Assembly (NCBI RefSeq): GCF_000317555.1 | Contig: NC_019746.1 | Coordinates: 1 to 64,000 of the forward strand | Length of the DNA stretch: 64,000 nucleotides | Source of the DNA: Gloeocapsa sp. PCC 7428 | Lineage (GTDB): Bacteria; Cyanobacteriota; Cyanobacteriia; Cyanobacteriales; Chroococcidiopsidaceae | Direction of reading: 5' to 3' | Shown: positions 10,501 through 60,865 of the stretch, one piece after another | Numbering within the stretch: position 1 is the first letter of the stretch | How the letters are laid out: each line of letters opens with the position of its first letter | The notes under the pieces: model-generated | Database searches by the model: none | Seen by the model: only the letters and a program-made list of their open reading frames with translations | What the model was told of the DNA's origin: nothing | Made by a program: the position numbers and the translations under genes

Positions 10501-11723
10501 TTAAATTACAACAGCGCGGAATTCGCAATCTTGAAGCACTTCCTAGCATTGAACTACCGCAACCAACTGTAAACAACGCTCAAATCCGACGACAAAGTTA
10601 TCGTCAATTTTTACAGCAACCACTCGATTTAGCACAATTTAGCCAGTGGATGAGTAGCTTAGCACAAACACAAATCGAAGGTGCGCCGTTACCGAAATAT
10701 CGCTATGCTTCAGCAGGTAGCCTTTATCCAGTGCAAACATACTTATATGTTAAAGAGAATCGCATCGCTGGATTATCCGCAGGCGTTTACTACTACGATC
10801 CGCGATCGCATCGTTTAATTTTACTTGCTGCTGAAGCGAAAATAATAGAGCAAATTTATGACAGTAATCAATCAATTTTTGCTGAATCTGCATTTTCGCT
10901 GTTTCTGATTGCCGAACTTGCGGCAATTACCCCAGTTTATGGCGACAAGGCTAGAGATTTTTGCTTACTCGAAGCGGGATATATCAGTCAACTGCTGATG
11001 GAGACTGCCCCCGATTATGATATTGGTTTGTGTCCGATTGGGACGTTGGAATTTGCAAGTATCGAACAGTATTTTGATTTAACACCGAGTCAAATGCTGT
11101 TACACAGTTTCGTTGGTGGCAAAATTGAACCAAGTTGGCAGCAGCATTGGTCAGTCGCGTCACCACACCGGACACTTGCTACAAGTCGGGAAACCCCACC
11201 AACGCGATCGATTCCCGAAAGATTGCGACAGTATCTTCAGCAAAAGCTTCCTGATTATATGATTCCGTCGCAGTATGTATTGTTAGATAGCCTTCCTTTA
11301 ACTGCAAATGGCAAGATCGACCGTCGGGCTTTACCTGTACCACAATTAACTGCAACATCACAAGATTACGTTGTACCCCGAACTGAAGTCGAGCAAGCGA
11401 TCGCCACAATCTGGCAAAATGCGCTTAATGTCGAAAAGATTGGCATTCACGACGATTTCTTTGAGTTAGGTGGTAACTCGCTTTCAGCGACGCAAGTGAT
11501 TACCCAAATGCGCCACTTAGGGATGGAATTAACGATTCGCGCTTTCTTTGAAGCACCGACAATTGCTGCGCAAGCGCAAATTCAACAACAACACGTTAAA
11601 CCAGCTAAGACAATCCCCAAGCTAGCGCGCAGTATCGAACTAATACCGAACGTTGAACAAATGTCGGATCAAGATGTTGAGGCAATGCTTGCACAAATGA
11701 TTGCAGAGGAGGTTGATTTATGA
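4512..11723 (+). CDS. NRPS, two modules: C-A(Ala)-PCP-Cy-A(Cys, Ox)-PCP
   Basis: Domain order by residue: C about 45-470, A1 about 495-970, PCP1 (Ser1014), Cy about 1070-1500, A2 about 1520-2270 split by an oxidase, PCP2 (Ser2323). The A1 pocket reads DLFNNALTY, the code I know for Ala from microcystin McyA. The A2 pocket reads DLYNLSLIW, the classic Cys code. The Cy domain has the DxxxxD motif (Asp1205, Asp1210), so it should condense and cyclise Cys to a thiazoline. About residues 1995-2225 form a McbC/nitroreductase-like FMN oxidase between A8 and A10, which would give the thiazole. The first C domain reads HHIISDRWS, with Arg in place of the usual Gly. Residues about 1644-1688 are an in-frame repeat insertion. 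The stop overlaps the next start by 4 bp. Confidence 0.95.
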   Translation: MNNIYQQLAKLSPQQRLLFERRLQQRGVKLVQPQISRRKNDDELPLSFAQQRLWFIQQFEPLSSAYNVASALRLKGELKIAALEQALREIVARHETLRTSFVTNAVKQPIQVVAAPQFDLQVIDLHGNASPEVQLISDICDRPFDLTQSLLRVRLLRLHEDDHILVIATHHIISDRWSIGVFLSELSTLYNAFCDRQSSPLAELPIQYADWAIWQRQYLQGDVLATQAAYWQAQLQKMPLLELPCDRPRPANPTYQGAQYPLVLSTTLSKELRSLAAKAGTTLFTVLLAAFKVLLHRYTQQDDIAVGTDIANRDRPETAGLIGLLVNTVVLRTQVGDLTFRQLLRRVQQVVVDAIAHQDLPFEKLVEILNPDRNLSQMMPLFQVKFDLQLAAVKPLELQGLTVERLSLAEQTVKYELRLNLQDGECINGQVEYSTDLFDEATIARLVEHFQILLQGIVDNPDAQLWELPLLTPKEQLLLQPHLIQLDDDDLCIHHLLEAQVRQTPDAIALIDRHEYITYRELNARANQLAHYLHSLGVKGRVGVYLPRTSQLIVAILAVLKVGAACVPLDPVYPQARLDFIVDDADVSVLIHNTDLTFNSHIPTEIDLDGDWSLIAECSAEDLDLGICNLELAYLIYTSGSTGKPKGVAIAHRSTVALLRWANEVFTSEALAGVLAATSICFDLSIFEIFVPLSWGKKVVLVENILELPQVAPDTVTLINTVPSALAQLSKINAIPISVHTVNLAGEALPYSLVEQLRQLPHIQQIYNLYGPSEDTTYSTFACITDTIHIGCPIANTQVYVLDKYLQLVPFGVPGELYIAGAGLAQGYFNRPELTAEKFIPNPFNHSKFNRLYKTGDLVRYRPDGNLEFIGRLDQQVKIRGYRIEIGEIEAVLSQCSTVKEGVISVSEHGGDQRLVAYVVPNSDFTATALREFLAQKLPNYMIPSVVIELEKLPRLPNGKVDRSSLPEGENISITTNYVAPRTKVEKIIVQIWQSELDVTVGLHDNYFELGGHSLLAIKIIAVINETFSVDLPLRYLFENPTVAELASKIEQTTTRQAPTIKLTPDLVNRYQPFPLTDIQQAYWIGRNEAFALGNVATHGYREVETIGLSVTQVEKAWQQLIARHDMLRVVIQPDGQQRILPEVSPYEIKTWDLRDKPTAEATATLTNLRNRLSHQIFATDTYPLFDIQAVLLDDNKIRFFVSFDVLIGDAASLQVLGQEFVALMQSKSLPPLDISFRDYILVAIKIRNSETYQRSRDYWQNRLSTLPPSPQLPLQKTLAAVETPRFVRWSGTLASELWQKLKQQASQHNITPSGILLAAFTEILTRWSSPQFTLNLTLFNRLPLHPQVNQLVGDFTSSLLLAIDNSEQSTFIAKAQKIQAQLWEDLEHRHVSGVQVLRDLARLQQRQTGALMPVVFTSILTQTASNTNSHHSWQADVVYSLSQTSQVYLDHQVAEVDGTLVYNWDAIAELFPDGLLDEMFAAYSRLLEDLATTADWQAPTQLLPFTVDTPAATILSESPLHTLFFAQVTQNPHKQAVVTSTLNLTYQQLSDRVYNLAAKLQQLGVEPNQLVAVVMDKGWEQVVAVLGILTAGAAYVPIDPHPCDRALQLLQQAQVKYVVTQPWLDSAFADVDVTRICVGAVEVFSPLNPPLVGDLERLGSPRPLSLSPNSGGEDKEKTFVHGARGANPTDLAYVIYTSGSTGVPKGVAIDHQGAVNTILDINQRFGVTEQDWVLGLSSLTFDLSVYDIFGTLAAGATLMIPDADLAKDPAHWAELMQRYPITIWNSVPALMQLLIHSQPKTTNNLRLVLLSGDWIPLNLPQQIWLSFERAEIISLGGATEASIWSIFYPIQFVDPDWKSIPYGYPLTNQQIYVLNQTRDRCPTWVTGELYIGGVGLAKGYWGDREKTDESFITHPQTGERLYKTGDLGRYLPNGAIEFLGRADFQVKINGYRIELGEIEASLAQHPAIQAAVVTAVGEPQRLVAYVVPQVEQRSDFKLQQRGIRNLEALPSIELPQPTVNNAQIRRQSYRQFLQQPLDLAQFSQWMSSLAQTQIEGAPLPKYRYASAGSLYPVQTYLYVKENRIAGLSAGVYYYDPRSHRLILLAAEAKIIEQIYDSNQSIFAESAFSLFLIAELAAITPVYGDKARDFCLLEAGYISQLLMETAPDYDIGLCPIGTLEFASIEQYFDLTPSQMLLHSFVGGKIEPSWQQHWSVASPHRTLATSRETPPTRSIPERLRQYLQQKLPDYMIPSQYVLLDSLPLTANGKIDRRALPVPQLTATSQDYVVPRTEVEQAIATIWQNALNVEKIGIHDDFFELGGNSLSATQVITQMRHLGMELTIRAFFEAPTIAAQAQIQQQHVKPAKTIPKLARSIELIPNVEQMSDQDVEAMLAQMIAEEVDL
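9441..9576. repeat. Double palindromic repeat inserted in frame in A2 of the Cys module
   Basis: It holds two palindromes: the perfect 18-bp TCCCCCACTAGTGGGGGA at 9458-9475, and a hairpin at 9511-9532 with arms TCTCCCCCA and TGGGGGAGA. The insertion adds about 45 Pro/Gly/Ser-rich residues just before the A3 core (YTSGSTG). The block starting AGCCCCCTAAATCC is shared with the insertion at 16634 in the next gene. Confidence 0.85.
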
Positions 11724-14700
11724 CTTCAGCATCCTCCGAACAAAAGCGCCAGTTACTCGCAAAATTGCTGCAAAAAGCTCATCAACCGCAACGTTTTCTG
11801 TTATCGTTTGCGCAACGACGGTTGTGGTTCTTGGATCAGTTACAGCCAGGATCGCCTGCTTACAACATTCCCACCGCGTTGCATTTAACAGGTTCGCTTG
11901 ATATCGCGGCGTTAGAAGCAAGTTTGAATCATTTGATTCAACGTCATGAAATATTGCGATCGCGTTTTGTTGCAATTAATGGCGAACCGTTTGTCGAAAT
12001 TCATCTGGTAACGATATCAATACCATTAATTGATTTGCGATCGCTACCACCGACGCGCCAACAGCAACAAGTCAAAATCAGATGCCAGCAAGCCGCCCAA
12101 GCATCATTTGATTTAACCAAACCTCCCTTACTGCGCGCCACACTGCTGCAACTGAGTGAATGCGAGTATGTGCTGCTGTTTACAATGCATCACATCATTG
12201 CCGATTATTGGTCGATGCGGTTATTTGTACGTGAATTAACGACCATATATCAAGGATACGCTGCACAGTTGCCGGAATTGCCCATTCAATATGTTGATTA
12301 CGCTGCATGGCAACAAAATTGGTTAAATAGCCCCGAAAAATCTTCGCAACTTGCGTATTGGCAAGCACAATTAGCTGATTATCCACCACTTTTAGAATTA
12401 CCAACCGACTATCCGCGCCCAGCGGTACAAAGCTTTCGCGGTGCAAGGCGATCGTTTTCGCTTGATGCTGAATTATCAACCGCACTCAAAAATTTAAGTC
12501 AGCGTCAAGGCGTAACTTTGTTCATGCTTTTGTTGGCAGCATTCAAGATTTTACTGCATCGCTACACACAGCAGAATGATGTTCTTGTGGGTTCCACAAT
12601 CGCCAATCGTAACCGCAGTGAAATTACGCATTTGATTGGTTTATTTGTTAACAATCTTGTTTTTCGTACTAATTTAGCTGGTAATCCACAATTTCACGCT
12701 TTCTTGCAACAAGTTCGCGAGATAACACTAGGTGCTTACGCGCACCAAGATCTACCATACGAGTATTTAGTCGAACAACTACAACCTGAACGTAATTTGG
12801 GCTACAACCCGCTGTTTCAGGTAATGTTTATTTTACACAACACACCGACACAAGAAGTAAAGGTATCAAATTTATCGTTAAGCTACTTAGAACCCGAACA
12901 GCAAACTGCCCGCTTTGATCTCAGTCTGGATATGTATGAAACCGCATCCGGCTTGCGGGGTATCTTTGAGTACAATACAGATTTATTTAGTGCTACCACC
13001 GTTGACCGGATTATCGGCAACTGGCAAACGCTTTTAGCTGGAATCGTTGCCCATCCAGAACAGCGTATCGGTGAATTACCGCTATTAACATCAGCCGAAC
13101 AACGCCTGTTATCGCAATGGAATGATACAAGTTGTGAGTTTTCGTCACAGTGCGTTCACGAGTTATTCGCCGCGCAAGCCGAGAAAACACCAGATGCCAT
13201 TGCGGCTGTCTTTGAATCAGAACAGATAACGTATCGCGAATTAAATGCGCGCGCGAATCAACTGGCACATCACTTACAAGCAATCGGGGTAAGAGGCGAT
13301 CGCATCGGCATTTGCGTTAAACGTAGTATCAATTTACTCATTGGATTGCTCGGAATCCTCAAAGCTGGAGCAACATACATCCCGCTCGATCCATCGCATC
13401 CGCGCGATCGCTTGACATTTATGCTCGAAGATGCAGCAGTAGAAGTTTTAATTCAAACTGCACGATCGCTGATTCAGTCACGTACCAATGTTTACTTAGA
13501 CGATTGGACGCAATTCACCAAATATAGCCGCGCTAATCCTCCCCAAATCAGTGCCGAAAACCCCGCATACACGATCTACACCTCCGGTTCCACAGGTAAA
13601 CCCAAAGGCGTGCAAATTCTGCATAAATCCTTAGTTAACTTGTTGCAAAGTATACAAGAATATCTGCAAATAACCCCGAATGATGTCTTAGTCGCGACAA
13701 CAACCGTCGTCTTTGATATTGCCGCACTCGAATTATATCTACCACTGCTTATCGGTGCGCGGGTTGTGATTGCGAGTCGAGACACAGCAACAGATGGCGG
13801 GCAACTACAACAGTGTCTCGCCAACACGCAAGCAACCGTGATGCAATCAACACCAGCTACTTGGAATTTATTGATTGATAGCGGTTGGCAAGGAAATTCA
13901 CACCTCACGCAAATTATCAGCGGTGGCGAAGCACTGATGCCGCGTTTAGCAAAGCAACTACAGGCGCGCACAACTCAAGTATGGAATGTATATGGACCTA
14001 CTGAAACGACAATTTGGTCGAGTATCCATTGTGTAAAGGGGCGAGGGGATAAACTTGATGACCTGAATCTTGAGGTGATTCCGATTGGTAAGCCGCTGGC
14101 GAATACGCAGTTTTATGTACTTGATGGCTACTTACAACCTGTGCCGATTGGCGTACCAGGGGAATTATATATTGGCAGTGTGGGAGTTGCGCAAGGTTAT
14201 TTAAATCGACTGGAGTTGACGGCTGAAAGATTTATTCCTAATCCTTTTAGAAAGGATGCGATTTCTTCCACAGAAAACCGTCTTTATAAAACGGGGGATT
14301 TGGTACGTTATCGTGTTGATGGCACACTCGAACATTTAGGGCGGGTGGATTATCAGGTTAAGCTACGCGGATTTCGGATTGAGTTGGATGAAATTGCAGC
14401 AGTGTTGAACCAGCATCCTGATGTTCAGCAAGCCATTGTCGTGTTGGACAATCGCCAAACTGATCCGCGATTGATTGCGTATATTGTTTTCCAATCACCT
14501 GTAGCACATTTTGAACTGCGGCAGTTTTTGCAAACTAAGTTGCCTGCGCATATGATACCGGCGGCGTATGTCACGCTCGATAAATTACCGCTAACACCTA
14601 ACGGTAAGATAGATCGTCGGGCGCTACCAAGTGCGGAAGTACAACTCCAACCAAATCAATACATTGCGCCGCGCAATCCCATCGAAGAAATTTTGGCAGA

Positions 14701-48871: not shown

Positions 48872-51800
48872 ATGACATCAACGAACACTAAACAGATTGA
48901 GGACATTTATCCACTTTCTCCAATGCAGCAGGGAATGCTGTTTCATAGTCTCTATGCTCCTAATTCAGGAGTTTATATAATTCAGGTTAGTTTTGAAGTC
49001 TCTGGTGTCCTCGATATCACAGCATTTGAACAAGCTTGGCAAAAAGTAGCTGAACGTTATGCAGTATTACGCACAGCATTTGTTTGGGAGAAAGTAGAAC
49101 AGCCGCTACAGGTGGTCGGACGAAAAATTAAAATTCCAATAATTTTTTTAGATTGGCGATCAATCGATATCAAAACTCAACAACAACAGCTTGACACCTT
49201 ACTACAAAATCAACGCCAAGCAGGATTCAATCTAGCAAAAGCACCTTTAATGAATTTGACTTTAATTCATAAACAGCTAGAATTATATCAATGTGTTTGG
49301 AACTATCATCACCTCTTACTCGATGGATGGTCTGTTTCTTTATTGCTTGGAGAAGTTTTAACTTGCTACACAGCTTTGAGTAAAAATCAAGCATTAACTC
49401 TAGAAAAAACAACTCCCTACCGCGATTATATTGCTTGGTTACAACAGCAAGATATAGCCCAAAGCCGACAATTTTGGTGCAAAACTTTGGCAGGATTTAC
49501 CACACCCACACCTTTTAAAGTAGATAAAAAATCACATTTAACTCAAACTAATACTAACAATCAAGAACAGGAGAAAAAACTATCGCCACAAACTTCATCA
49601 CAATTACAAGCTTTTGCTAAACAGCACAAATTGACACTTAATACTCTGATTCAAGGTGCTTTCGCCTTGATGTTAAGTCGATACAGTGGTGAAAATGATA
49701 TCGTTTTCGGTGCAACTTGTTCGGGTCGTCCAGCATCATTACCCAACTCGGAATCAATAGTAGGTTTACTTATTAATTCTCTACCAATGCGAGTACAAAT
49801 TAAGCCGCTGCAAAAAGTTATTCCCTGGTTGCACCAACTTCAGCAGCAACAAACCGAATTACAGCAATACGAATATACTCCATTGTTTGAAATTCAGCGT
49901 TGGAGCAATGTTGATCGAGGACTACCTTTATTTGAAAGTTTAGTTATATTTGAAAATTATCCTGTAAAATCAGTAGCAGACATCAATATTCAAAATATCT
50001 ACACAATTGAGCAAAATAATTATCCTTTATCACTTTACATTGCAGTTGATTCAGTACTAAATTTACGAATTTTATATGATGGCGAGCGCTTTGAATCCAC
50101 AACAATATCACGGATGCTTGATCATTTACAAACATTGCTGGAAGCTATATTAATTAATCCAGAATGCTGTTTGTCAGAATTACCTACATTAACATCTGCT
50201 GAACGCGGATTATTTAGGCAATGGAATAATACAAAAACTGAAATATTTCCACAATGTATTCACCAATTAATTGCTACTCAAGCACAAAAAACGCCTGATG
50301 CGATCGCCGCCGTTTTTGAAAACGAACACATTACCTATGAACAACTCAATACACGTGCTAATCAACTAGCACACTATCTACTGCAAGTAACCTACATCAC
50401 AACAGAAACGAGAGTAGGAGTTTGTTTAAATCGTAGTATTGCCATGCTAATCGGGCTACTCGGAACCCTTAAAGCTGGTAGTACTTATGTCCCGCTTGAT
50501 CCCAGCTATCCACCCGAAAGGTTGCAGTATATGCTCGAAGATGCTGGAGTCAATGTAATCTTAACGCAAGACAATATCAGATTACCTCTAGTACCACACG
50601 CTATCAATATCAATCTCGATCGCGACTGGGAGATGATTGCACACTACAGCGAAGACAATCCACCTCATCAAATCATACCAAAGCATCTAGCGTATATTAT
50701 CTACACCTCCGGCTCTACCGGCAACCCCAAAGGCGTACAAGTTGTACACTCTGCCTTAGTGAATGTACTACAAAGTATGCAGCAACATTTGCAAATAACA
50801 TCCGACGATCGCTGGTTGGCAGTAACAACGATCGCATTTGACATCGCCGCAGTCGAGTTGTATTTACCGCTGATCGTTGGCGCAAGTGTTGTTATTAATA
50901 GCACCCATGCCATTGATGGCAACAGCTTACAACAATATTTAACAATGCAGCAAGCAACCGTGATGCAAGCGACACCTGCAACATGGAACTTACTTATTGA
51001 TAGCGGCTGGCGCGGTAGTCAAAACCTAAAAGCAATCAGTGGTGGTGAAGCATTATCAAGTACATTAGTGAAGCAATTACTCGCACGCGCAACGCAAGTA
51101 TGGAACGTATACGGACCAACTGAAACAACAATATGGTCAAGTATATTTTACTTAACGGAAGAAAACACCGAACTTACTACAACTCCCATTGGTAAACCGC
51201 TGGCGAATACACAGTTTTATGTGCTTGATGAGACTTTGCAACCTGTGCCAATTGGCGTACCAGGAGAACTATACATTGGTGGTGCAGGCATAGCACGCGG
51301 CTATTGGCATCAACCTGAGTTAACTGCGACGAAGTTTATTCCCAATCCGTTCACAACAGATGGTCGTGAACGGTTATACCGAACAGGAGATTTGGTACGT
51401 TATCGCAGTGATGGAGCGCTGGAATATCTAGAACGCATCGACTACCAAGTCAAGTTGCGGGGTTTTCGGATTGAATTGGGAGAGATTGCAACAGTATTGA
51501 CTCAACATCCACAGGTACAACAAGCCGTTGTTGTGTTGCATCATGACGAGAACTGCGAGGATCGTTTGGTTGCTTATGTTGTGCTGACGGCAGATTGTGG
51601 CACTAATCTCGCGAGTACGTTGCGGCACTTTTTGACGACGAAATTGCCAGCATACATGATTCCCTCCGTATTTATATCGATTGACAAACTGCCACTTACA
51701 GCTAACGGTAAAATTGACCGCAAAGCTTTACCCGTTCCAGAACTAACTCGCCCAGAACTTGAGACTCAATATGCGATCCCAAGGACAGAAGTCGAGCAAG

Positions 51801-52111
51801 CGATCGCCCAAATTTGGCAACAAGTCCTCAAAGTAGACAAAATTGGTATTCATGATAATTTTTTCGAGTTAGGTGGACATTCTTTATTGATGGTCAAAGT
51901 TCACAACCAGCTCCGTGCCAAATTTACCTTTAATATTTCTTTAGTGGAAATGTTTCGTCATCCGACGATCAGCGCACTTACAGACTACTTCAGTCAAGCA
52001 AATGATCCAAAACTTCAACTAGAGGATTTTAGAAGCGAAGAACTAGCAGCAGGGAAGCTACGTTTGCATCAACGTTTGCAACGAAGGAAGCGACCAATAA
52101 ACGGGAACTAG
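48872..52111 (+). CDS. Orphan NRPS module, C-A-PCP
   Basis: A single-module synthetase preceded by an AGAAGGAGA site. The C domain (about 1-440) begins IEDIYPLSPMQQGMLFHSL and keeps HHLLLDGWS, the pattern of domains that follow an epimerised residue. The A domain (about 455-950) pocket reads DIVQIGVIW, close to Gly-type codes and to A1 of the 11720 gene. The PCP has Ser1004 in GGHS. About 45 basic residues follow the PCP and could be a docking tail. There is no loading, reductase or thioesterase domain, so it must work with another line, possibly the main cluster 16 kb upstream. Confidence 0.93.
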   Translation: MTSTNTKQIEDIYPLSPMQQGMLFHSLYAPNSGVYIIQVSFEVSGVLDITAFEQAWQKVAERYAVLRTAFVWEKVEQPLQVVGRKIKIPIIFLDWRSIDIKTQQQQLDTLLQNQRQAGFNLAKAPLMNLTLIHKQLELYQCVWNYHHLLLDGWSVSLLLGEVLTCYTALSKNQALTLEKTTPYRDYIAWLQQQDIAQSRQFWCKTLAGFTTPTPFKVDKKSHLTQTNTNNQEQEKKLSPQTSSQLQAFAKQHKLTLNTLIQGAFALMLSRYSGENDIVFGATCSGRPASLPNSESIVGLLINSLPMRVQIKPLQKVIPWLHQLQQQQTELQQYEYTPLFEIQRWSNVDRGLPLFESLVIFENYPVKSVADINIQNIYTIEQNNYPLSLYIAVDSVLNLRILYDGERFESTTISRMLDHLQTLLEAILINPECCLSELPTLTSAERGLFRQWNNTKTEIFPQCIHQLIATQAQKTPDAIAAVFENEHITYEQLNTRANQLAHYLLQVTYITTETRVGVCLNRSIAMLIGLLGTLKAGSTYVPLDPSYPPERLQYMLEDAGVNVILTQDNIRLPLVPHAININLDRDWEMIAHYSEDNPPHQIIPKHLAYIIYTSGSTGNPKGVQVVHSALVNVLQSMQQHLQITSDDRWLAVTTIAFDIAAVELYLPLIVGASVVINSTHAIDGNSLQQYLTMQQATVMQATPATWNLLIDSGWRGSQNLKAISGGEALSSTLVKQLLARATQVWNVYGPTETTIWSSIFYLTEENTELTTTPIGKPLANTQFYVLDETLQPVPIGVPGELYIGGAGIARGYWHQPELTATKFIPNPFTTDGRERLYRTGDLVRYRSDGALEYLERIDYQVKLRGFRIELGEIATVLTQHPQVQQAVVVLHHDENCEDRLVAYVVLTADCGTNLASTLRHFLTTKLPAYMIPSVFISIDKLPLTANGKIDRKALPVPELTRPELETQYAIPRTEVEQAIAQIWQQVLKVDKIGIHDNFFELGGHSLLMVKVHNQLRAKFTFNISLVEMFRHPTISALTDYFSQANDPKLQLEDFRSEELAAGKLRLHQRLQRRKRPINGN

Positions 52112-52210: not shown

Positions 52211-52285
52211 CTTTGCCTTCTTTGTCTCCTTTTAGGCAAAGTATGCTGGAAATATCTACCCCAGCATGAGGGATTGACCCATGCT
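52211..52285. promoter_or_regulatory. Three adjoining hairpins before the recombinase gene
   Basis: The arms are CTTTGCC (52211-52217) with GGCAAAG (52235-52241), ATGCTGG (52243-52249) with CCAGCAT (52261-52267), and AGCATG-GGG (52263-52272) with CCCATGCT (52278-52285). The last two overlap, and the recombinase ATG at 52281 lies in the final arm. It could be the recombinase's own core site (an internal recombination site) and an operator. Confidence 0.5.
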
Positions 52286-52902
52286 ATTTCTCACCAGCCA
52301 ACTTCCCTTTTCGGCAAAGATATTTTCTCGCCCTCTACCACCACCGAAAAAATCATCCTCATCAGAACGAGAATATCTACGCATCTTGGAAGTCCAAGCC
52401 ATGATGAGCGCCGCCAAAAAAGTAGGTCGTCATGGTGTCAGAGATGCAGCGGTTATTCTACTGATGTTTCGTTACGGGCTGAAAACCGCTGAATTAGTAG
52501 CTCTGAAATGGTCGCAGATAGATTTAGTAGGAGGCTACATCGAAGTCCGAAGAGCCAAACATGGTCATGATAGCATTCATCCCCTACGTTCTCCAGAACT
52601 CAGAGCTTTACGTCAAATTTTCAAGAGTTATCTTGATACCCAATACGTTTTCGTATCAGAACGAAAAGCTCCTCTATCAACTCGCTCAATTCGCCACATC
52701 GTAGCTAGAGCAGGACAATTAGCCCGAATACCATTAATAGCATCATCCCCATCAACTGCGCCACGCTTGTGGCTACTATTTAGCTTCCCTGGGACACGAC
52801 ACTAGGGCAATTCAAGATTATTTAGGTCATAAGAATATTCACTATACAGTTTGTTATATGCAGATGACACCCCAAAGGTTTGAGAGTTTCTTTCCGGATT
52901 AA
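52281..52902 (+). pseudogene. Tyrosine recombinase (TnpI/Xer-like), frameshifted
   Basis: The catalytic domain is readable: first Arg in MLMFRYGLKTAELVALKW-like context, then LSTRSIRHIVARAGQLARIP. After a one-base loss in a C run near 52748 the frame continues as HQLRHACGYYLASLGHDTRAIQDYLGHKN and IHYTVCYMQMTPQRF, with the HxxR box, the second His and a candidate nucleophilic Tyr. The repaired protein is about 206 residues. It probably served as the resolvase of the Tn3-type element. Confidence 0.8.
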
Positions 52903-54247
52903 GCTACCGATAGTTGCGTTAGCCGAGCAATTCTTTCGGTCATATCCAACTTGAGCGTGCCATAAGGATTGACATGACTAAAAATCAAAGGTGTAATTGC
53001 TCTTAAATTAGTTGCAGTAAGCTTTTGCTCCCAATGCTCCTGAGCTAGTACATTCTGAATCATCAAGGTATTCACATGCACCAAACATATTTGCAATAGA
53101 TGCAAAGATAACATGGATAACTCCTGAGTTTCCAAGCGATATGAGGCAAACTCCCCACCTTTACCGTAAAAGATAAAATCATTAACCCCATTCCATCTTT
53201 CCACCACATTTAAGCCTTCATTAACTTCCCGTCGTACTGCCTCATCTTGGAGATATTGACACAGGAAAATTGTCTTAATTGCTCGACCCAATTCCAGCAA
53301 AGCTGGATAGGTAGGGTGAACAATCGGATTTTTGCTAAAACGTTTTAATATGGCTTCGGTTTCTGCCGTTCCCAACCTCAAAGCTGTGGCAGACTTCACC
53401 ATCTGGTCATACTGCTGGCGAATCAAATCCCAATTAATCGGACGGATCAGAATCGGTTGTAGGTTAGGATAGGCATCACTTTGACCAATATAAAAACGAG
53501 TTTCGGCGATATTCCCCTGAATAAATCAGGAGGTAAACCAACAGATCAAATACGTTTGAGCTTTTCTATTTCAGTTAAGAAACTACATAGCCCCACTAGA
53601 CCTGGGTCAGTTTTGAGAAAAGCCAAGTCCGATGCTTTAAGTTTTTCCTGAGGCTTCTCTGATTCAGCTTTTTCTATGTTATTGGTTTCTTCGGTGGTGA
53701 GGATAATGTCGATTTGTTCAATATTTGTGGAAGTAAGTTGAGAGAAAGTTTGATTACAGAATAAGAAGTCGTGTTGGTGAATAGCACTACGAATTAAACG
53801 TTCAACCTGTTTTGGGGTTGGGGGTTCGATTTGTAAGTTACGAAACTTTTGATAGATAAGTTGAAGGAGGGGTTCAAATCTTTGTTCATTGGGTAAAATG
53901 TTTTCAATTAACCAATTGGATATCTCCTCCGAATCAGAGAGAGTAGCAATCCGAAACTCGAATAACTGACGAATTTCTGCACGATGATTTTTGAGAGAAC
54001 GCCCTTGCCAATTGTATTAAGAATACAAGTTAGGGTCAATTTTTAGTTGTGAGGCGATGTAAAAGATAATAAGGTCTGGTATTTCGGCTGAAGAGTTAGG
54101 AAAACGAGCCATTAGTTGAAAAGATTTTAGTAAAATGGCAAAACCAATCTGATTAGCACCGACTTTCTTATTGACCCGTTCTAATTCTTGGGGAAGAAGT
54201 GTTCAATTTTCGATGAGTTCTTCTGTATCCCAATGTGGTTTGACCAT
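52899..54247 (-). pseudogene. Tn3-family transposase TnpA, degenerate and internally deleted
   Basis: The C-terminal 175 residues (NPIVHPTYPALLELGRAIKTIFLCQYL, then NEGLNVVERWNGVNDFIFYGKGGE) are typical DDE_Tnp_Tn3. Upstream, from 54247, the N-terminal part reads MVKPHWDTEELIEN, a stop at codon 15, then LLPQELERVNKKVGANQIGFAILL, a second break near 54020, and AEIRQLFEFRIATLSDSEEISNWLIENIL onwards. The two parts join near 53530-53560, where several hundred residues of a usual ~1000-residue TnpA are missing. The element cannot move by itself. Confidence 0.85.
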
Positions 54248-54483
54248 TCACTCTCTTCTCCGTTCAGGTAATCTCAGTAAGAGTTGAGCATAAATGAATA
54301 GATAGTCGTATTTATCAAAAATGCAGATTTAAGATAGTTTGTCAAATATAGTCAAACTAGTATATTTAGAAAACTTATTAACAAGGGGTGAAAACGGGTA
54401 TCATTCATCATTAAGAGGCAAAAGTTGAAACCTATACACATCAGTGGTTTCAAGTCAGGGTTGCCCTCGGTTGCACCAACCTT

Positions 54484-54792
54484 CTATTTTTGCCTAGTTT
54501 CAGGCTGCTGTTGCGGTTGTACCTCTTTGTTTGGAGCAGTAACCGCATCTGGCAGATTCTGTATATCAGTTTCGCGCTTTGCTACAGTGGCGCGTTCTTT
54601 CTTCCACTTACTAATCAACTTCCGCGAACAACCCGTACCCGTCTTTTCCCGCACAAAATCAATCAGCGCGTCATATGTTGTAATACCCTGGGCTTGAGCT
54701 TCGTCTAAAGCTTGAAAAACCTCTGCTGTCCGAGAAGCGTGAGGTTGCTTCTTGGTAGTTTCTAAAGGAGGCAAAATAGAAATTTTGCTCAT
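54484..54792 (-). CDS. Protein of unknown function in the plasmid-like block
   Basis: A 102-residue protein. The middle (ASRTAEVFQALDEAQAQGITTYDALIDFVREKTGTGCSRKLISKWKKER) looks helical and could be a DNA-binding fold. The C-terminus is polar and Gln/Pro rich, probably disordered. Its start overlaps the end of the ATPase gene by 4 bp, so it is the last gene of that block. I do not recognise the family. Confidence 0.6.
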   Translation of the reverse strand: MSKISILPPLETTKKQPHASRTAEVFQALDEAQAQGITTYDALIDFVREKTGTGCSRKLISKWKKERATVAKRETDIQNLPDAVTAPNKEVQPQQQPETRQK

Positions 54793-56204
54793 TCTTCACT
54801 CTCCAATCGCTGAAAGTAAGGCATGATATCAACTTGGGACGCATCCTTGCCAAACCTACACAGTGCTTGTAAAGGTGAAAGTCGTGCTACCCTCTCTTCC
54901 GCAAACCGAAACTTTTTAGCAACTGACCGAACTTCGGTCTGGTCCACTGGCAGCACAATCTTCGTCGCTGAGTTACCAATCAGGTCTGCTGATAAATGAC
55001 GCTCGGACTGAGAGGCAGCAACCAAAGCTAATCCGTACTTTCTGCCATCAGCTGTGATGCGATCGCAACTATTACCCGAATTTTTAGGCATCTCCTTGGC
55101 TTCATCGATGAACAAAAATGTCCGAGGAATTTTGCCTGCTATTTCTCCCATTAGTCTATGTTTATCCATCAACTGTCTAGCCAACGACTCGGCAGCGATT
55201 GATTGGAGTGCGGGAGGTAACTTGGATAAATCGACTCGAATTAGTCGTTCTTCAAACTTAGGCTGCGGTCTAGAAAAGATCCCATACTGAAAAGTAGCTG
55301 CTAATTTAAGCCGGAGTTTTTCACTTTCTTTACACTTCGGTTTAAGTTCTAACTCATTAAAATTTGGCTCAAATCTTTTAATCAAAGCAGTTTCTAGTTT
55401 AAGAAGCTGTTCCCACTCGCTGTCTTGCTGATACCAATGTACTACGGCGCTCTTGCTAACCTTTTTAAGAACGTGATGGTTGCCTGTAAGTCTATTTAGT
55501 AAATTCATCGATGCCCCCACGTATATAACCTTCTCGCCTTGCAACACAAAATAAATCCCTGGGGCTTTTGGTGGAGTTGATTGCGGTAAATCTAGTGGAT
55601 TGATAGTTTGAGCCGAGGCTTGCGTTTCTTCATCAGTAACGGTTTCAATACTGCGGCGATTGATCTCTTCCTCTAAGTCATCAAAGTTAGGCGGCTCTAA
55701 TAACCAAGTGTCTGGTTTCTCCTGAACAATTCCCCGCTTTTGATAGCAAGTTTTGAAAATTTCTAGTAATTTGCCTTCTTGATTAGGACCTAATACTAAA
55801 ACTTTCTTGAGCGTTGCTGCTACTGCAATTGCTTGCAGATTGGGACCACCACCTTCGGGATCTGGGTTAACTACTAATGGGTTAATTCCATAAGGCGAAG
55901 CCATATGTAAAGGATAAACAACTTCTCCCTCAACTTCCTGGTCGCCGTGGAAATCTATCAAAATAATTTGCGTGTTTGAGTAAAGGCGGTGTAGTTCGTA
56001 GGCGATCGCCTTTAATGTTTGCGTCTTTCCCGAACCGCTTGCTCCAATAATTGCAATATGGGCATTAGGTAAAAGCTCAGGATTCCAACGAGTATTTTCC
56101 CCAAGCAAAATTCCAGGTGAAGTTGCTACTGGTGCAACCGTCGGTGCATTGCGCACTACCTTCAACACTGGCTCTGGCAATGGCTTAGCTTTTTTCTGAA
56201 ACAT
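54789..56204 (-). CDS. HerA/TraD-like ATPase with inserted GIY-YIG nuclease domain
   Basis: A 471-residue protein. The P-loop is GASGSGKT (residues about 53-60), the second strand is IILIDFHGD, and Walker B is FLFIDEA near 363-369, followed by a sensor-like VAASQSE. Together these indicate the HerA/FtsK/VirB4 class of hexameric DNA translocases. Residues about 214-290 are a GIY-YIG nuclease-like domain placed between Walker A and Walker B: GIYFVL, YVGASMNLLNRL with the catalytic Arg, and LETALIKRFEPNFNE with Glu and Asn. All key residues appear present. It is adjacent to the DUF457 membrane protein (1-bp overlap) and near ParAB, so a role in plasmid transfer, maintenance or defence is plausible. 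Confidence 0.85.
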   Translation of the reverse strand: MFQKKAKPLPEPVLKVVRNAPTVAPVATSPGILLGENTRWNPELLPNAHIAIIGASGSGKTQTLKAIAYELHRLYSNTQIILIDFHGDQEVEGEVVYPLHMASPYGINPLVVNPDPEGGGPNLQAIAVAATLKKVLVLGPNQEGKLLEIFKTCYQKRGIVQEKPDTWLLEPPNFDDLEEEINRRSIETVTDEETQASAQTINPLDLPQSTPPKAPGIYFVLQGEKVIYVGASMNLLNRLTGNHHVLKKVSKSAVVHWYQQDSEWEQLLKLETALIKRFEPNFNELELKPKCKESEKLRLKLAATFQYGIFSRPQPKFEERLIRVDLSKLPPALQSIAAESLARQLMDKHRLMGEIAGKIPRTFLFIDEAKEMPKNSGNSCDRITADGRKYGLALVAASQSERHLSADLIGNSATKIVLPVDQTEVRSVAKKFRFAEERVARLSPLQALCRFGKDASQVDIMPYFQRLESEE

Positions 56205-57250
56205 TACAATACCTCCACTGTACGAATAATTAAGCTGCCAGATGCGTAGTAATCACCTAATAAATGCATGACTTCTGTAGGACTTGCTGACTCTAAGCGC
56301 ACAACTCCCATTTCGCGACCGTATTGCAGCGTAATCGTGTCGAAAGAATCGGCATGAGTAGGCACAACTAAATCCTCAGCATCTTCGACAGTTAGAGTAC
56401 CGTTGATATACGTTCGTTCGCTTGTTGAGTTTTGATACTGTGTCAAAACTTCAGCAACAACTTGATCTGATAATTGTAATTCTTGAACTTGTAGTTGTAT
56501 TGGGCTACTGCGTTCAATTAAAATCCGGCTAGCGATAATCTGACAATTTTGCGAACTACCCACTCGGTAGAGTTTGCCTGAAGCATCCTTGAGCAACAAA
56601 TCTGTTTGCGTCAGTGGTCGCACGACTTCAAACTTTTCATTAACCGACTGCTGAGCGATCGCCCAGCGTCCGTAAACTTGAGCCATCAATAAATACTGCG
56701 ACCCCTCGCTATTGACAATTTCAACAGCACCTGATGGAATGCCTAGCGTTGAGTTAAAGGTCCTTAAAATACCGCCATTACTATTGATAGCGAGAAGCGC
56801 GATCGCTACCAGAATCAGCAATGCTATCACAAAATATTCAGCGGGACTTCCTGTTGATAGTCGCAACTGCGGATTGCCTGGAATCACGAGCCGTGCTGCT
56901 GACGGATAAAATGCTGCCACGCCACTTTTTGTAAACACGTCCGCAAACCACCCGCAAAAATACCCCAACACTAGAGCTTGCCACAGCTTGGTTGTGATTA
57001 ACGCAATTGGCAAAGTAACAAGTGCGATTGCCCCTGTTGCTAGGAAACTGTGAGTAATCGTGCGATGCGGATAGCGCTTTTCTAACCAAGATGAAATAGG
57101 TAACAAAATGCGTCCTGGAATACTTTTTGAAGTATCAACGTCTGGTAGTTGAGAAGCTAAAGCGCCCGTCAATAATAACGTTGGTTCAGCCGTTCCCAAG
57201 AACAGCGAAGTTGCAGTAGTGGCAAAAACTGCGTGAGTAATGCTTTTCAT
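56204..57250 (-). CDS. DUF457/YdjM-type membrane protein, metal-dependent hydrolase family
   Basis: A 348-residue protein. The N-terminal half carries the family motifs LPDVDTSKS and HRTITHSF (Asp/His candidate metal ligands) with several membrane segments. The C-terminal half after about residue 170 is soluble and beta-rich, an extension not expected for the usual short family members. YdjM-like proteins are inner-membrane and in E. coli are LexA-regulated. The start overlaps the preceding ATPase gene by 4 bp, so these genes form one operon. Confidence 0.8.
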   Translation of the reverse strand: MKSITHAVFATTATSLFLGTAEPTLLLTGALASQLPDVDTSKSIPGRILLPISSWLEKRYPHRTITHSFLATGAIALVTLPIALITTKLWQALVLGYFCGWFADVFTKSGVAAFYPSAARLVIPGNPQLRLSTGSPAEYFVIALLILVAIALLAINSNGGILRTFNSTLGIPSGAVEIVNSEGSQYLLMAQVYGRWAIAQQSVNEKFEVVRPLTQTDLLLKDASGKLYRVGSSQNCQIIASRILIERSSPIQLQVQELQLSDQVVAEVLTQYQNSTSERTYINGTLTVEDAEDLVVPTHADSFDTITLQYGREMGVVRLESASPTEVMHLLGDYYASGSLIIRTVEVL

Positions 57251-58185
57251 TGCCCCAACCTCGTTGATTTCTTGGGCAAGCTGTACAACAGCAAGCGCAC
57301 AATTCCCACCGTAACGCCAACAAGTCCGCCAATCAGGTACAGCGAAGTGCTATTTAGCCCAAGACCAATAAATCTAACGATTGTGAAAACCATCAATCCA
57401 GCAATGAGGAATGGAGTACCATCAACCCATTGCGTGTGGTCTGGACTGTTTTCCTCCAAACCTAAATATTCCTCGCGTACTACTCGCTTAGCAAGCATGG
57501 GATTTCCACCGCACCTTTGCTGTAGTTGTGCTAATTGTGCAGCAGATAACTCTATCCCCAGTTCTCCAGCAGCTTGCTGCATAATTTCTCGAATCTGGCG
57601 GTGCGACAAGGGTTGTAACTCAATCCGAGGTAGCTTGAGAAAAATGTCTTTAGCGGGCGGACGCGAGGCAACTAGTAGCATCGGCTGACCACCACTATGT
57701 AATTCTTCTAACCAACAGCGAATTGACACCGAAAGACGGTGAGCATCATCGATTAAGAGAAAAGCCGTAGTCTCGCTCAAAAACTCAGCGATCGCTTCCA
57801 TCAACCCTGTTACGGTAAGTGCCTTACCCTCGATGGACTCGGTATCAGCACCAAGCTGAGCAGCAATTGAGAGTAGAATTTGCTTTGGAGTTGCCGGATT
57901 AGTCGTTGCTAAAGGAAACCCAGCTTCAGCTAGATCCACAGCAACACTATCTACTAAAGTTGTTTTCCCGCAACCAGGTTCTCCGATAACGAGCAAACTA
58001 GAATCTGCTTTTAGCGCGGCGACAATCCGATTTTTTTCTTCCACTCTATAGAGGAGTGGCGAAACGGAATCGGAACTGGAACTCGTGACAACTCCTACAC
58101 TTCGCCGCTGCTCGTGACTAACTTCATAAATATAAGTCCGCTCCTCGCCGCTAGCGAGTCTGCGTCGATGTTGCTTGATGCCCAT
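57247..58185 (-). CDS. AAA ATPase with C-terminal membrane anchor
   Basis: A 312-residue AAA+ protein in the TniB/ExeA style. Walker A is GEPGCGKTTLV and Walker B is AFLLIDDAHRLS, followed by a PMLLVASRPP sensor. Residues after about 235 form two membrane segments (FLIAGLMVFTIVRFIGLGL and YLIGGLVGVTVGIVRLLLY). A DNA-associated ATPase fixed to the membrane next to a HerA-like motor suggests that the two act on DNA at the membrane. This is inference. Confidence 0.82.
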   Translation of the reverse strand: MGIKQHRRRLASGEERTYIYEVSHEQRRSVGVVTSSSSDSVSPLLYRVEEKNRIVAALKADSSLLVIGEPGCGKTTLVDSVAVDLAEAGFPLATTNPATPKQILLSIAAQLGADTESIEGKALTVTGLMEAIAEFLSETTAFLLIDDAHRLSVSIRCWLEELHSGGQPMLLVASRPPAKDIFLKLPRIELQPLSHRQIREIMQQAAGELGIELSAAQLAQLQQRCGGNPMLAKRVVREEYLGLEENSPDHTQWVDGTPFLIAGLMVFTIVRFIGLGLNSTSLYLIGGLVGVTVGIVRLLLYSLPKKSTRLGQ

Positions 58186-58242: not shown

Positions 58243-58782
58243 TCAGCGTCCCGCCGATGACTTGCGCCCTGATTCTTGCTTGCTTTCTTTTTCGGTACTC
58301 TTTGGCGAGTTGCTGCTGACTGGAAGCGATCGCATCGAACCACTCTCCCCAGATGCTTCCAACGCTAGAGGAGTTTGCGCTAAAAAAGCTTCAGGGTCAT
58401 ACACCGTTGCCACTCCACTAAGGAACTGTCGCAGTCTCCCCTGTGATTCATCTACTGCTTGTTGAAGGTTAGAGTCGGAAAACTTGCGAGTAGCGCACTT
58501 AACCATTGTCAGCGTGTCGAGCGCCACCAACATTCCGGCGGCGCGATTTTCTGCGGCAACTTCAATACTCTTTAAATCAGCCTCAGCTGTGGAAACTGCT
58601 TCGTCTTCCGCTGCATCAGCAGCTTTGGCACTAACCGAGCGCTTTTTTCCACATTGGTTCTTGACTTCCTCCAAAACCTCATCAGGAAATTGAGTTGTGC
58701 CTTTGGGGTAGCCCATCTTAGCAGCAATTCCTTCAACCTTACGCCGCGAACCGTGTTGCATTAAATCTTCAAGCGTTACCAT
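58243..58782 (-). CDS. Protein of unknown function in the plasmid-like block
   Basis: A 179-residue protein beginning MVTLEDLMQHGSRRKVEGIAAKMGYPKGTTQFPDE, which could be a short DNA-binding head. An Ala-rich helical centre (AAENRAAGMLVALDTL) and a Ser/Lys-rich tail that looks disordered follow. It overlaps the preceding 88-aa gene by 14 bp. No family is recognised. It may be an accessory DNA-binding partner of the ATPases. Confidence 0.65.
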   Translation of the reverse strand: MVTLEDLMQHGSRRKVEGIAAKMGYPKGTTQFPDEVLEEVKNQCGKKRSVSAKAADAAEDEAVSTAEADLKSIEVAAENRAAGMLVALDTLTMVKCATRKFSDSNLQQAVDESQGRLRQFLSGVATVYDPEAFLAQTPLALEASGESGSMRSLPVSSNSPKSTEKESKQESGRKSSAGR

Positions 58783-59035
58783 TTTGGATCTTCCTTAGTT
58801 TCTGTAAGAGTTCCCTTCGGGTTCCGCCAGAAGCGTAGTGTTGATTGACAACCCTTAGCTGCTGAAACTGCTCCTCAGTAAAATACCGCAGCCCTAGCTC
58901 AAAGCCAAGGTCGGCACACCACTTGCTGATTAAGCTCGGATCGAGCGGATATTCTGGACTTCGCCCCCGCTCCTCGGACAAAATCAGCACAGCTAACCGT
59001 CGCGGAACCTCGCGGTGAGTTGTTGAATGATTCAT
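58769..59035 (-). CDS. Small protein of unknown function, first gene of the ATPase operon
   Basis: An 88-residue protein, MNHSTTHREVPRRLAVLILSEE, with a C-terminal segment TEEQFQQLRVVNQHYASGGTRRELLQKL that could be a MerR-like or other small DNA-binding helix pair. Its start codon is embedded in the 11-bp palindrome array (59024-59065), which suggests autoregulation. It begins the co-oriented block that runs to 54484. Confidence 0.6.
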   Translation of the reverse strand: MNHSTTHREVPRRLAVLILSEERGRSPEYPLDPSLISKWCADLGFELGLRYFTEEQFQQLRVVNQHYASGGTRRELLQKLRKIQNGNA

Positions 59036-59169: not shown

Positions 59170-60114
59170 TTACTGTCCCTCTTCTAGCAGCTTCTCTATC
59201 TTTTGCAACCAACCCTGCACTTGCTTCCACTTTTTCGGGTCTTTGTCCCAGAGTTTTGATTGATTGAGACGACGGCTTATTGTTTGAATGTGAGATTGAG
59301 GAGATGGAGATGAAACTTTATTGGGTTGAATCGAGTTCAATCGTTCTCGAATTCGACTGAGAGATAGGTTTTCTTGAATTGCCTGTGCTAGTAATTCTTT
59401 TCTTTGCTGCTCGTCCTTCACTGAAGCGATCACCTTCGCCTTTGTGTACTCGATTTGTCCTGAGCGCAATGCCTCTAAAATCTCCTCTGGCAGCCTTAAT
59501 AAAGGCAGTCGATTGTTAATAAATGATTCCCACTCCATTAACCCTAATTCCGCGAATACCTGCTTAACAGTCTCGGCTTCGGGTTGACTAATAACGTTAT
59601 TAGTCATTCTTTGAACGTCATTCAGCATTCGATAAAGTAACGAACTGACGTCACTTTCAGCGCTTTTGAGCCGCGATGCTAAAAGTTGTAAAATGGCTTC
59701 AGTCTCCTCAACTGGATTCAAATCTTCGCGTTGTAAATTTTCGACTAAAGAAACTTGAATAGCCTGTTCGTCAGTAAGCTGCCGAATAGCCACTGGAACT
59801 TCTGTCAAACCAGCGGCTTGGGCAGCGCGATACCTTCTCTCGCCAGCAACTAGCTCGTATAAGCCTTCTTTTTCTTCTACAGGGCGAATTAGTAAGTTCT
59901 CTAAGATACCATGCGCCTTAATTGATTCTGTCAACTGCTCCAATTTCTCTGGATCGAAATAGCGTCGTGGTTGTCGTTCAGGAAGAATAATCGCATCTAA
60001 CTTTACAGTTTGCGACGAAGTTGCTACTTCCTCCTCACCAAATAACACATCAAGGTTGGCTTGAGATTTGTACGGCTTATCGCTCTTACGACGAGAGCTT
60101 GGTTGGCGGGTCAT
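59170..60114 (-). CDS. parB: ParB-family partition protein
   Basis: A 314-residue ParB. The N-terminal ParB/Srx domain shows PERQPRRYFDPEKLEQLTESIKAHGI, the CTP-binding GERRYRAAQ and ENLQREDLNP. A central DNA-binding region (AELGLMEWESFINNRLPLLRLPEEILEALRSGQIEYTKAKVIA) follows, with a Lys-rich C-terminus. The central part differs from chromosomal ParB, as expected for a plasmid-type protein. It overlaps the ParA gene by 29 bp. It would bind a centromere site, perhaps the array at 59024-59065, and segregate the replicon. Confidence 0.92.
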   Translation of the reverse strand: MTRQPSSRRKSDKPYKSQANLDVLFGEEEVATSSQTVKLDAIILPERQPRRYFDPEKLEQLTESIKAHGILENLLIRPVEEKEGLYELVAGERRYRAAQAAGLTEVPVAIRQLTDEQAIQVSLVENLQREDLNPVEETEAILQLLASRLKSAESDVSSLLYRMLNDVQRMTNNVISQPEAETVKQVFAELGLMEWESFINNRLPLLRLPEEILEALRSGQIEYTKAKVIASVKDEQQRKELLAQAIQENLSLSRIRERLNSIQPNKVSSPSPQSHIQTISRRLNQSKLWDKDPKKWKQVQGWLQKIEKLLEEGQ

Positions 60115-60865
60115 TGAGAGTCTCCATCTGAGCAGCTAGTTGGTCGAGAATTTTTAGAGCAGGATTGTGAGGATCGTAAACAGCTAGAGGTACTTGTTCT
60201 TCAGAAGCGTCAACAAACGCAGTCAAACGAGGAATAGCGTCATGAACAGTACCGACTTTACCAAATTGTTCGCGGATTGCTTGTAGCGTGCGCTTGTCTT
60301 GAGAGTTGTTAGCAGCATAGCGAGAAGGAACAAAACCTGCAATCTCTAATGTTCGGTTACCTCGCTTTCTCACTTTCGCGATCGTTTGTAAAAGTAGATT
60401 AGTTCCTTGAAATGCTTTGAAATGAGTTTCAACTGGAATCAGAACGTGAGTAGCCGCCACAAGACTTGTATAGCTAAGTAGACCCAGACTAGGTGGACAA
60501 TCAATCAAAATAAAATCATAGTTTTCTCTGATCGGGTCGAGCGCTTCTTTAAGGCGTACTTCGCGAAAATCCAGATTAACCAACTGAATCTCTGCGGCAC
60601 TCAGATTAATATTAGCCGGAGCCAAATGAATTCCCTGAAGATCCTTTAGAACAAATAGAGGTTCTTCATTAATTAGCGCATCGAATGGGGTTTTTTCCAA
60701 GGTGTCCGGATCGATGCCCATGAAGGTGGTTAGGGAGGCTTGGGGGTCGAGGTCAATCAATAATACTCGATGTCCCCGTGCTTGGAGATGATACCCCAAG
60801 TTCTGGGTCAAGGTTGTTTTCCCCACCCCACCTGCTTGATTAAAGAGTGCGATGGTACGAGTCAT
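60086..60865 (-). CDS. parA: ParA-family partition ATPase
   Basis: A 259-residue ParA with a deviant Walker A (NQAGGVGKTTLTQNL), an LIDLDPQASLT segment and Walker B (FILIDCPPSLGLLSY). There is no N-terminal helix-turn-helix extension, so it is of the short type. Together with ParB it drives DNA segregation. The presence of a complete parAB pair suggests that this part of the contig comes from a plasmid or an integrated one. No replication initiator is visible in the window. Confidence 0.95.
   Translation of the reverse strand: MTRTIALFNQAGGVGKTTLTQNLGYHLQARGHRVLLIDLDPQASLTTFMGIDPDTLEKTPFDALINEEPLFVLKDLQGIHLAPANINLSAAEIQLVNLDFREVRLKEALDPIRENYDFILIDCPPSLGLLSYTSLVAATHVLIPVETHFKAFQGTNLLLQTIAKVRKRGNRTLEIAGFVPSRYAANNSQDKRTLQAIREQFGKVGTVHDAIPRLTAFVDASEEQVPLAVYDPHNPALKILDQLAAQMETLNDPPTKLSS

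Follow-up and report, generated by a model that had tools for sequence, protein, structure and literature searches.

Motor-plus-nuclease pairs recur in defense, repair, and transfer, and proteins in which the two are joined have been described. DndH is reported to couple an REase domain, placed ahead of the ATPase in a chain with several further domains, to a motor of the HerA/FtsK kind, and defense systems have repeatedly captured such motors (PMC10853773). A second precedent dates from 2006, when a GIY-YIG domain was reported to be inserted in HsdR of Methylococcus capsulatus (MCA0838), a relative 80% identical to it being without the domain; that report describes the insertion as unique and possibly irrelevant to function and GIY-YIG domains as being able to invade new loci (PMC1564403).

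In this study, we analyzed a stretch of 64,000 bases (here called the window; bases 1 to 64000 of the 204-kb contig C2, in a genome of five contigs of which C1 measures 5.43 Mb) for which an earlier note had proposed that the Walker A and Walker B motifs of a HerA/TraD-like ATPase are separated by a GIY-YIG nuclease domain. A complete domain is located there, and the motor that carries it is of the HerA/VirB4/DndH-C type. Compared with DndFGH, the nuclease in the window is a GIY-YIG domain that lies inside the ATPase, and the 471-aa chain shows the ATPase and GIY-YIG parts only.

RESULTS

Gene neighborhood

The presence of parA and parB suggests that contig C2 is a plasmid. The neighbors named in the earlier note, a membrane AAA ATPase, a DUF457 (YdjM-type) membrane protein, and ParAB, were all recovered, and the surroundings of the motor gene are as follows.

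52899 to 53426, minus strand: Tn3-family transposase fragment, past the truncated adaptor gene (PF01526, 3e-51)
54484 to 54792, minus strand: HlyD-like adaptor remnant, 102 aa, N-terminal part only (the congener gene encodes 506 aa)
54789 to 56204, minus strand: HerA/VirB4/DndH-C-type ATPase with GIY-YIG domain, 471 aa, a single frame of 471 codons
56204 to 57250, minus strand: YdjM-type membrane protein, DUF457 (PF04307, 5.4e-22; plasmid homologues)
57247 to 58185, minus strand: AAA_22 ATPase with a C-terminal end that is hydrophobic by eye (PF13401, 2.8e-13; plasmid homologues)
58243 to 58782, minus strand: 179-aa protein without a Pfam family, present in some of the module loci described below
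58769 to 59035, minus strand: 88-aa protein without a Pfam family
59170 to 60114, minus strand: ParB (PF02195, 5.4e-29)
60086 to 60865, minus strand: ParA (PF13614, 3.9e-51)

Integrase-like and Tn3-family transposase fragments occupy positions 52281 to 54480 of the window, adjoining the truncated adaptor gene, and neighboring these fragments is a large ORF (48872 to 52111) that reads by eye as a nonribosomal peptide synthetase. A search of the genome for the relaxase family PF03432 alone found a member at positions 157671 to 158051 of contig C5 and none on C2.

The motor

The two ATPase halves of the protein gave profile matches to type IV coupling proteins and HerA; the sequence relative of the motor is DptH, and its fold relatives are DndH-C, VirB4, HerA, and TrwB, with DndH-C and VirB4 being the closest solved folds. 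Its motifs were assessed in 23 aligned sequences.

56022 to 56045, minus strand: Walker A, residues 54 to 61, GASGSGKT (G54, S56, G57, G59, K60, and T61 invariant in the 23 sequences)
55092 to 55121, minus strand: Walker B, residues 362 to 371, TFLFIDEAKE (D367 and E368 invariant in the 23 sequences)
55038 to 55049, minus strand: DGRK, residues 386 to 389, candidate arginine finger (D386, G387, R388, and K389 invariant in the 23 sequences)

Gln399, a candidate sensor 1, is likewise invariant, so that G59, K60, T61, D367, E368, R388, and Q399, the residues corresponding to those used to define the HerA/FtsK superfamily in PMC10853773, are all conserved without exception; the roles of R388 as the arginine finger and of Q399 as sensor 1 are candidate assignments by analogy with that source. 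The protein probably belongs with the DNA translocases of the HerA/FtsK superfamily and would be expected to assemble into a hexamer and to translocate DNA at the expense of ATP, our structure model of the 471-aa protein being that of a monomer. As regards a coupling protein of type IV secretion, the N terminus of the motor is not hydrophobic by eye, and other type IV secretion annotations are absent from the seven cyanobacterial plasmid neighborhoods; such transfer genes, of the TraJ and DotD/TraH types, surround a distant relative of the motor (26%) on a Hafnia plasmid.

The GIY-YIG domain

Two features define the nuclease part of the protein.

55347 to 55652, minus strand: insert, residues 185 to 286 (linker and GIY-YIG domain), missing from insert-less relatives
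55347 to 55565, minus strand: GIY-YIG domain, residues 214 to 286, with Tyr218, Tyr228, Arg238, Glu271, and Asn283

The domain lies between Walker A (residues 54 to 61) and Walker B (residues 362 to 371). In the whole protein it scores 21.8 bits against a Pfam GIY-YIG cutoff of 22.6 bits, and when excised it scores 26.2 bits; the assignment that the earlier note had proposed to check by profile search is therefore upheld by profile and also by fold. The fold matches comprise UvrC, Eco29kI, T4 EndoII, and I-TevI, together with the N-terminal domain of a plant Grx, which we take to have the same fold, and the domain displays the beta hairpin, helices, third strand, and long helix of the GIY-YIG superfamily. 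The active-site residues listed above are those originally claimed, and they or their equivalents are kept in all six carriers of the domain, including the Tyr, Arg, and Glu residues whose conservation in homologues had been singled out as decisive. Tables of the excised domains garble two of these carriers (L034, with a wrong letter, and L033, with gaps), and the catalytic residues stand in the full sequences of both. Extra loop residues occur in three of the six embedded domains; those of L034 and L055 follow the first strand, and those of L033 come later. Unlike a homing endonuclease housed in an intron or intein, the domain lies in a continuous reading frame, and Pfam matched no intein family in either the whole protein or the insert; a Pfam scan of the excised insert also found no second domain.

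The GIY domain and the motor are under purifying selection of comparable strength: dN/dS values were 0.07 (GIY) and 0.04 (ATPase) between the window and L002 and ranged from 0.02 to 0.20 (GIY) and from 0.05 to 0.10 (ATPase) in the six pairs formed by the other four carriers, with dS close to saturation in several pairs. An in-frame position, an intact set of active-site residues, and purifying selection together make a functional nuclease attached to the motor the most likely interpretation of the domain and a dead relic an unlikely one.

Insertion site, carriers, and origin of the insert

Relatives from cyanobacterial plasmids and from genomes mostly match the window protein in two pieces (approximately residues 1 to 184 and 287 to 471), and because most of those on cyanobacterial plasmids are without residues 185 to 286, the domain is an insertion at one loop. 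The gap in the aligned cyanobacterial rows falls at a single loop, with RIEEG / CKESQK as its common form, whereas two distant rows, from the Hafnia plasmid and a phage, have a different, longer stretch at this site. The insertion point is identical across the six carriers, and the insert exits the structure model between helices 174 to 186 and 293 to 307. The all-alpha part of TrwB faces the cytoplasm, and by analogy with this layout the nuclease might be positioned near the mouth of a ring.

The carriers form two groups: one consists of the window and genome G004, which shares an identical protein with Gloeocapsopsis crepidinum LEGE 06123, and the other of Hyella patelloides, Xenococcus sp. 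MO_188.B8, Pleurocapsa sp. CCALA 161, and Stanieria cyanosphaera PCC 7437, identical proteins being represented once in the set of relatives. They account for 4 of the 24 loci on genome contigs and for 2 of the 26 genomes that matched at 1e-30 among the 388 searched for the class. With the Stanieria protein as the query and a threshold of 1e-100, a search of 388 genomes from the order matched 6, and carriers alone reached the threshold; within the family of Stanieria, 4 of 27 genomes are carriers and 2 more match just the first 66 and 82 residues. Viral contigs gave no confirmed relative of the whole protein or the insert in searches sensitive to close relatives only, and among phages there was one distant ATPase match, in Dolichospermum phage Dfl-JY45, with other sequence where the insert would be.

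Besides the domain itself, the insert and standalone cyanobacterial GIY-YIG proteins have in common a leader, INPLxLP, and the stretch that follows this leader is six or seven residues shorter in both carrier groups. The linkers of the two groups are nearly equal in length and both insert boundaries coincide. Since leader, linker length, and boundaries are common to the two groups, a single capture from the standalone proteins is most likely, and a domain tree that places the six carriers on one side (support, 44/1) agrees weakly with this. Independent capture in the two groups was considered on the grounds that the GIY domain of the window is 44% identical to a standalone protein and the domains of the two carrier groups are 33 to 36% identical to each other, but it was set aside in view of the same shared features and the same tree.

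Allele exchange

In a congeneric genome (G002), the module is present but its motor allele, designated L003, lacks the insert. Comparison of the window with this congener in 90-base steps gave DNA identities of 74 to 93% upstream of the motor gene, 53 to 68% around the insert, and 71 to 83% thereafter. The best tract of divergence is the following.

55200 to 55994, minus strand: tract diverging sharply from the congeneric insert-less allele, residues 71 to 335

Identity to L003 is 58% inside this tract and 86% outside it, a contrast equaled in none of 1,000 permutations within conservation classes. In the tree of the tract, L003 lies within a mainly Nostocales clade (100/99), and a topology uniting it with the window pair is rejected at P = 0.00135; the tree of the ends, by contrast, groups L003 with the window pair (82/0). 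L003 is therefore a mosaic, and middles with and without the insert occur in otherwise close alleles. Residues 151 to 184 of the window protein, beside the insert, are 76 to 82% identical to those of the other carrier group and at most 59% identical to any insert-less row.

A single clade of carriers gave P values of 0.036 (core), 0.00115 (ends), and 0.445 (middle) when L003 was included, 0.0707 (ends) when L003 was constrained inside the group, and 0.259 (core), 0.045 (ends), and 0.0285 (core minus the columns beside the insert) when L003 was omitted. The first ATPase tree contained 51 rows of more than 290 residues; the trees for these tests additionally omit the long or incomplete rows L058, L059, L016, L076, and L015, and none of these trees includes the fragments L051, L082, L007, and L014. 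The strong rejections of one carrier clade thus stem largely from the mosaic L003, and weak ones persist. Homing with coconversion as the leading account is weakened, since the tests without L003 do not consistently reject one carrier clade, and a single capture followed by ordinary recombination can be sufficient.

The plasmid module

The motor gene is part of a run that encodes an AAA protein, a YdjM-type membrane protein, the ATPase, an HlyD-like adaptor, and often a TolC-like protein (positions 8095 to 13549 of L097; positions 54484 to 58185 of the window). This module was defined from seven annotated cyanobacterial plasmids and a profile search of 34 ATPase loci, which count one contig twice (L098 is L031) and in which contig ends account for part of the missing neighbors. 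The survey of cyanobacterial plasmid neighborhoods that the earlier note had envisaged found the YdjM-type gene in 30, the AAA gene in 27, and the TolC-like gene in 18 of the 34 loci, and an SNase-type match in 15. Since short adaptor matches cover the N-terminal part alone, adaptors were counted by matches to their body, which is present in 31 of the 34; the loci without it are the window and L039 and L048, both of which end just past the motor gene. Adaptor body and SNase profile stand in one ORF, as a nuclease-adaptor fusion, at positions 9411 to 10922 of L037 and 2133 to 3617 of L038. In several plasmids the N-terminal region of the adaptor, which no profile names and which is a separate ORF elsewhere, contains GCSRKLIS.WK and looks DNA-binding-like by eye. 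The HlyD and TolC names are weak ones: type I HlyD was matched by two of the four adaptors scanned with NCBIfam (8e-4 and 1.2e-5), and OEP, at E values up to 0.1, by four of six cyanobacterial TolC-like proteins, two of them below 1e-3 and the best at 1.5e-6. In six of six cases, the start of the TolC-like gene overlaps the end of the HlyD-like gene by 59 to 191 bases in relative frame +1.

L055, 13007 to 13092: HlyD-like/TolC-like overlap
L083, 10595 to 10686: HlyD-like/TolC-like overlap
L084, 11699 to 11769: HlyD-like/TolC-like overlap
L086, 5829 to 5887: HlyD-like/TolC-like overlap
L056, 8530 to 8597: HlyD-like/TolC-like overlap
L097, 12509 to 12699: HlyD-like/TolC-like overlap

Most of the plasmid records matched by module queries are typed as non-mobilizable (40 of 42 for the AAA protein, 25 of 26 for the adaptor, and 28 of 29 for the TolC-like protein). 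The adaptor remnant of the window is 79% identical to residues 1 to 103 of the L097 adaptor (11179 to 12699) and is the sole match to that adaptor in its own genome; the TolC-like query, which matches 29 plasmid records, had no match in this genome in a search run without a positive control. Thermus plasmid pL4C (L103) has AAA, YdjM, SNase, ParA, and TolC-family genes in one stretch without the motor, the last of these being recognized by annotation and Pfam and missed by the TolC profile of the module, and Picosynechococcus plasmid pAQ5 has AAA, YdjM, adaptor, and TolC-like genes with no motor in the 15-kb stretch analyzed. Because both stretches hold module genes without it, the motor is not obligatory for the module, which is a candidate for an envelope-spanning DNA export machinery.

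DISCUSSION

We judge the odds to be slightly in favor of the captured GIY-YIG domain being a working nuclease on the DNA translocase of a plasmid module, where it would nick or cut the DNA that the motor engages. The motor would have acquired a standalone cyanobacterial GIY-YIG domain, most likely once, in a loop flanked by two helices within the segment separating Walker A from Walker B, and is the probable cytoplasmic engine of the membrane module formed by the AAA, YdjM-type, HlyD-like, and often TolC-like proteins. The ATPase ring would bind plasmid or other DNA, the presumed substrate of the module, at the membrane and pump it; where the insert is present, the ring would be topped by GIY-YIG domains that nick or cut the DNA held there, which would either free an end for translocation, a role taken elsewhere by a relaxase, or destroy competing DNA. 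The proposal of the earlier note that one protein pumps and cuts DNA would fit this scheme. Most relatives are without the insert, and the motor in general therefore does not need the nuclease. The module possibly exports DNA, and the window copy may no longer serve in such export, because its adaptor has been cut to 102 aa and the TolC-like gene was not found.

The rather unlikely alternative that survives best is that the GIY-YIG domain is a selfish or tolerated passenger in a permissive loop, moved between alleles by recombination and without a role in the motor, its spread possibly aided by its own cutting in the manner of a homing endonuclease without an intron or intein. The capacity of GIY-YIG domains to invade loci and the possible irrelevance of the HsdR insertion, both taken from PMC1564403, are compatible with this, as are the recombination of alleles evident from the middle of L003, which falls in the mainly Nostocales clade, and the resemblance of the window to the other carriers at residues 151 to 184. 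However, the exchange documented is that of the insert-less middle of L003, so that the insert need not have moved; one carrier clade is not consistently rejected without that allele, and the insert has no second Pfam domain and is under selection comparable to that on the motor.

With the same low probability, the module may be a cyanobacterial plasmid DNA export machine unlike type IV secretion, in which the GIY-YIG domain of the pump replaces a relaxase by cutting the plasmid. The pump and the two membrane proteins would then feed DNA to the HlyD-like adaptor, in some plasmids fused to the DNA-binding-like N terminus or an SNase domain, and on to a TolC-like outer membrane duct.

A shade less probable again is a plasmid-borne defense or competition device, in which the motor would thread foreign or competing plasmid DNA for degradation by the nuclease, as in DndFGH, MADS, and HerA-effector systems. 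PADLOC matches of the motor to mad8 (2.4e-24), DndH (6.6e-17), and several HerA models (down to 4.7e-12) led us to rate this possibility marginally higher than we would otherwise have done; DndH-C is the closest relative in sequence and fold, and the AAA neighbor weakly matches IetA (1.7e-7). These matches, however, reflect a motor family common to defense and transfer, the scan of eight window proteins brought out no second gene of any one known system, and the neighbors are partition genes and envelope-type proteins in a gene order that also occurs without the nuclease. Retention of the fold for DNA binding or motor shaping without catalysis could account for the low identity between the domains of the carrier groups and for the additional loop residues in half of the carriers, but the canonical catalytic residues persist in all six, and we regard it as improbable.

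A nuclease grafted into a motor subunit as a working part, the reading that we prefer, offers a fixed geometry and also a simple genetic test, because a congeneric allele without the nuclease exists in nature. If the module exports DNA, it would provide a hint as to how cyanobacterial plasmids could move despite being typed as non-mobilizable. Neither the motor-GIY-YIG fusion nor the module was named in the titles and abstracts listed by our literature searches, from which subscription journals were mostly absent.

Set against described systems, the motor most closely resembles the C-terminal ATPase of DndH/DptH (7es4) in both sequence and fold, but in a PADLOC scan of eight window proteins neither DndF nor DndG was matched. 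Its strongest PADLOC match is mad8 of MADS, and the other seven proteins scanned showed at most weak P-loop matches to mad8. In HerA-NurA and HerA-effector complexes the effector is a separate protein, unlike the fusion in the window, and a Pfam scan of ten window proteins found no NurA. HerA possesses an N-terminal domain, for which there is no room here because the chain starts some 27 residues before the HerA-aligned part. In contrast to VirB4 and TrwB, the partners are HlyD-like and TolC-like proteins, and the motor alone is annotated as type IV secretion in the seven cyanobacterial neighborhoods. The protein with the same architecture on Stanieria plasmid pSTA7437.03 (WP_015195730.1), 60% identical and accompanied by adaptor and TolC-like genes, is annotated "GIY-YIG nuclease family protein," which leaves the motor unnamed. 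HsdR MCA0838 is alike in having a GIY-YIG domain inserted in the subunit of an ATP-driven restriction motor but differs in being another motor with a nuclease of its own and an Slx1-like GIY-YIG domain, whereas two plasmid groups keep the domain described here. The joining of a motor to a nuclease is already known from DndH and HsdR, neither of which involves this motor or this insertion site.
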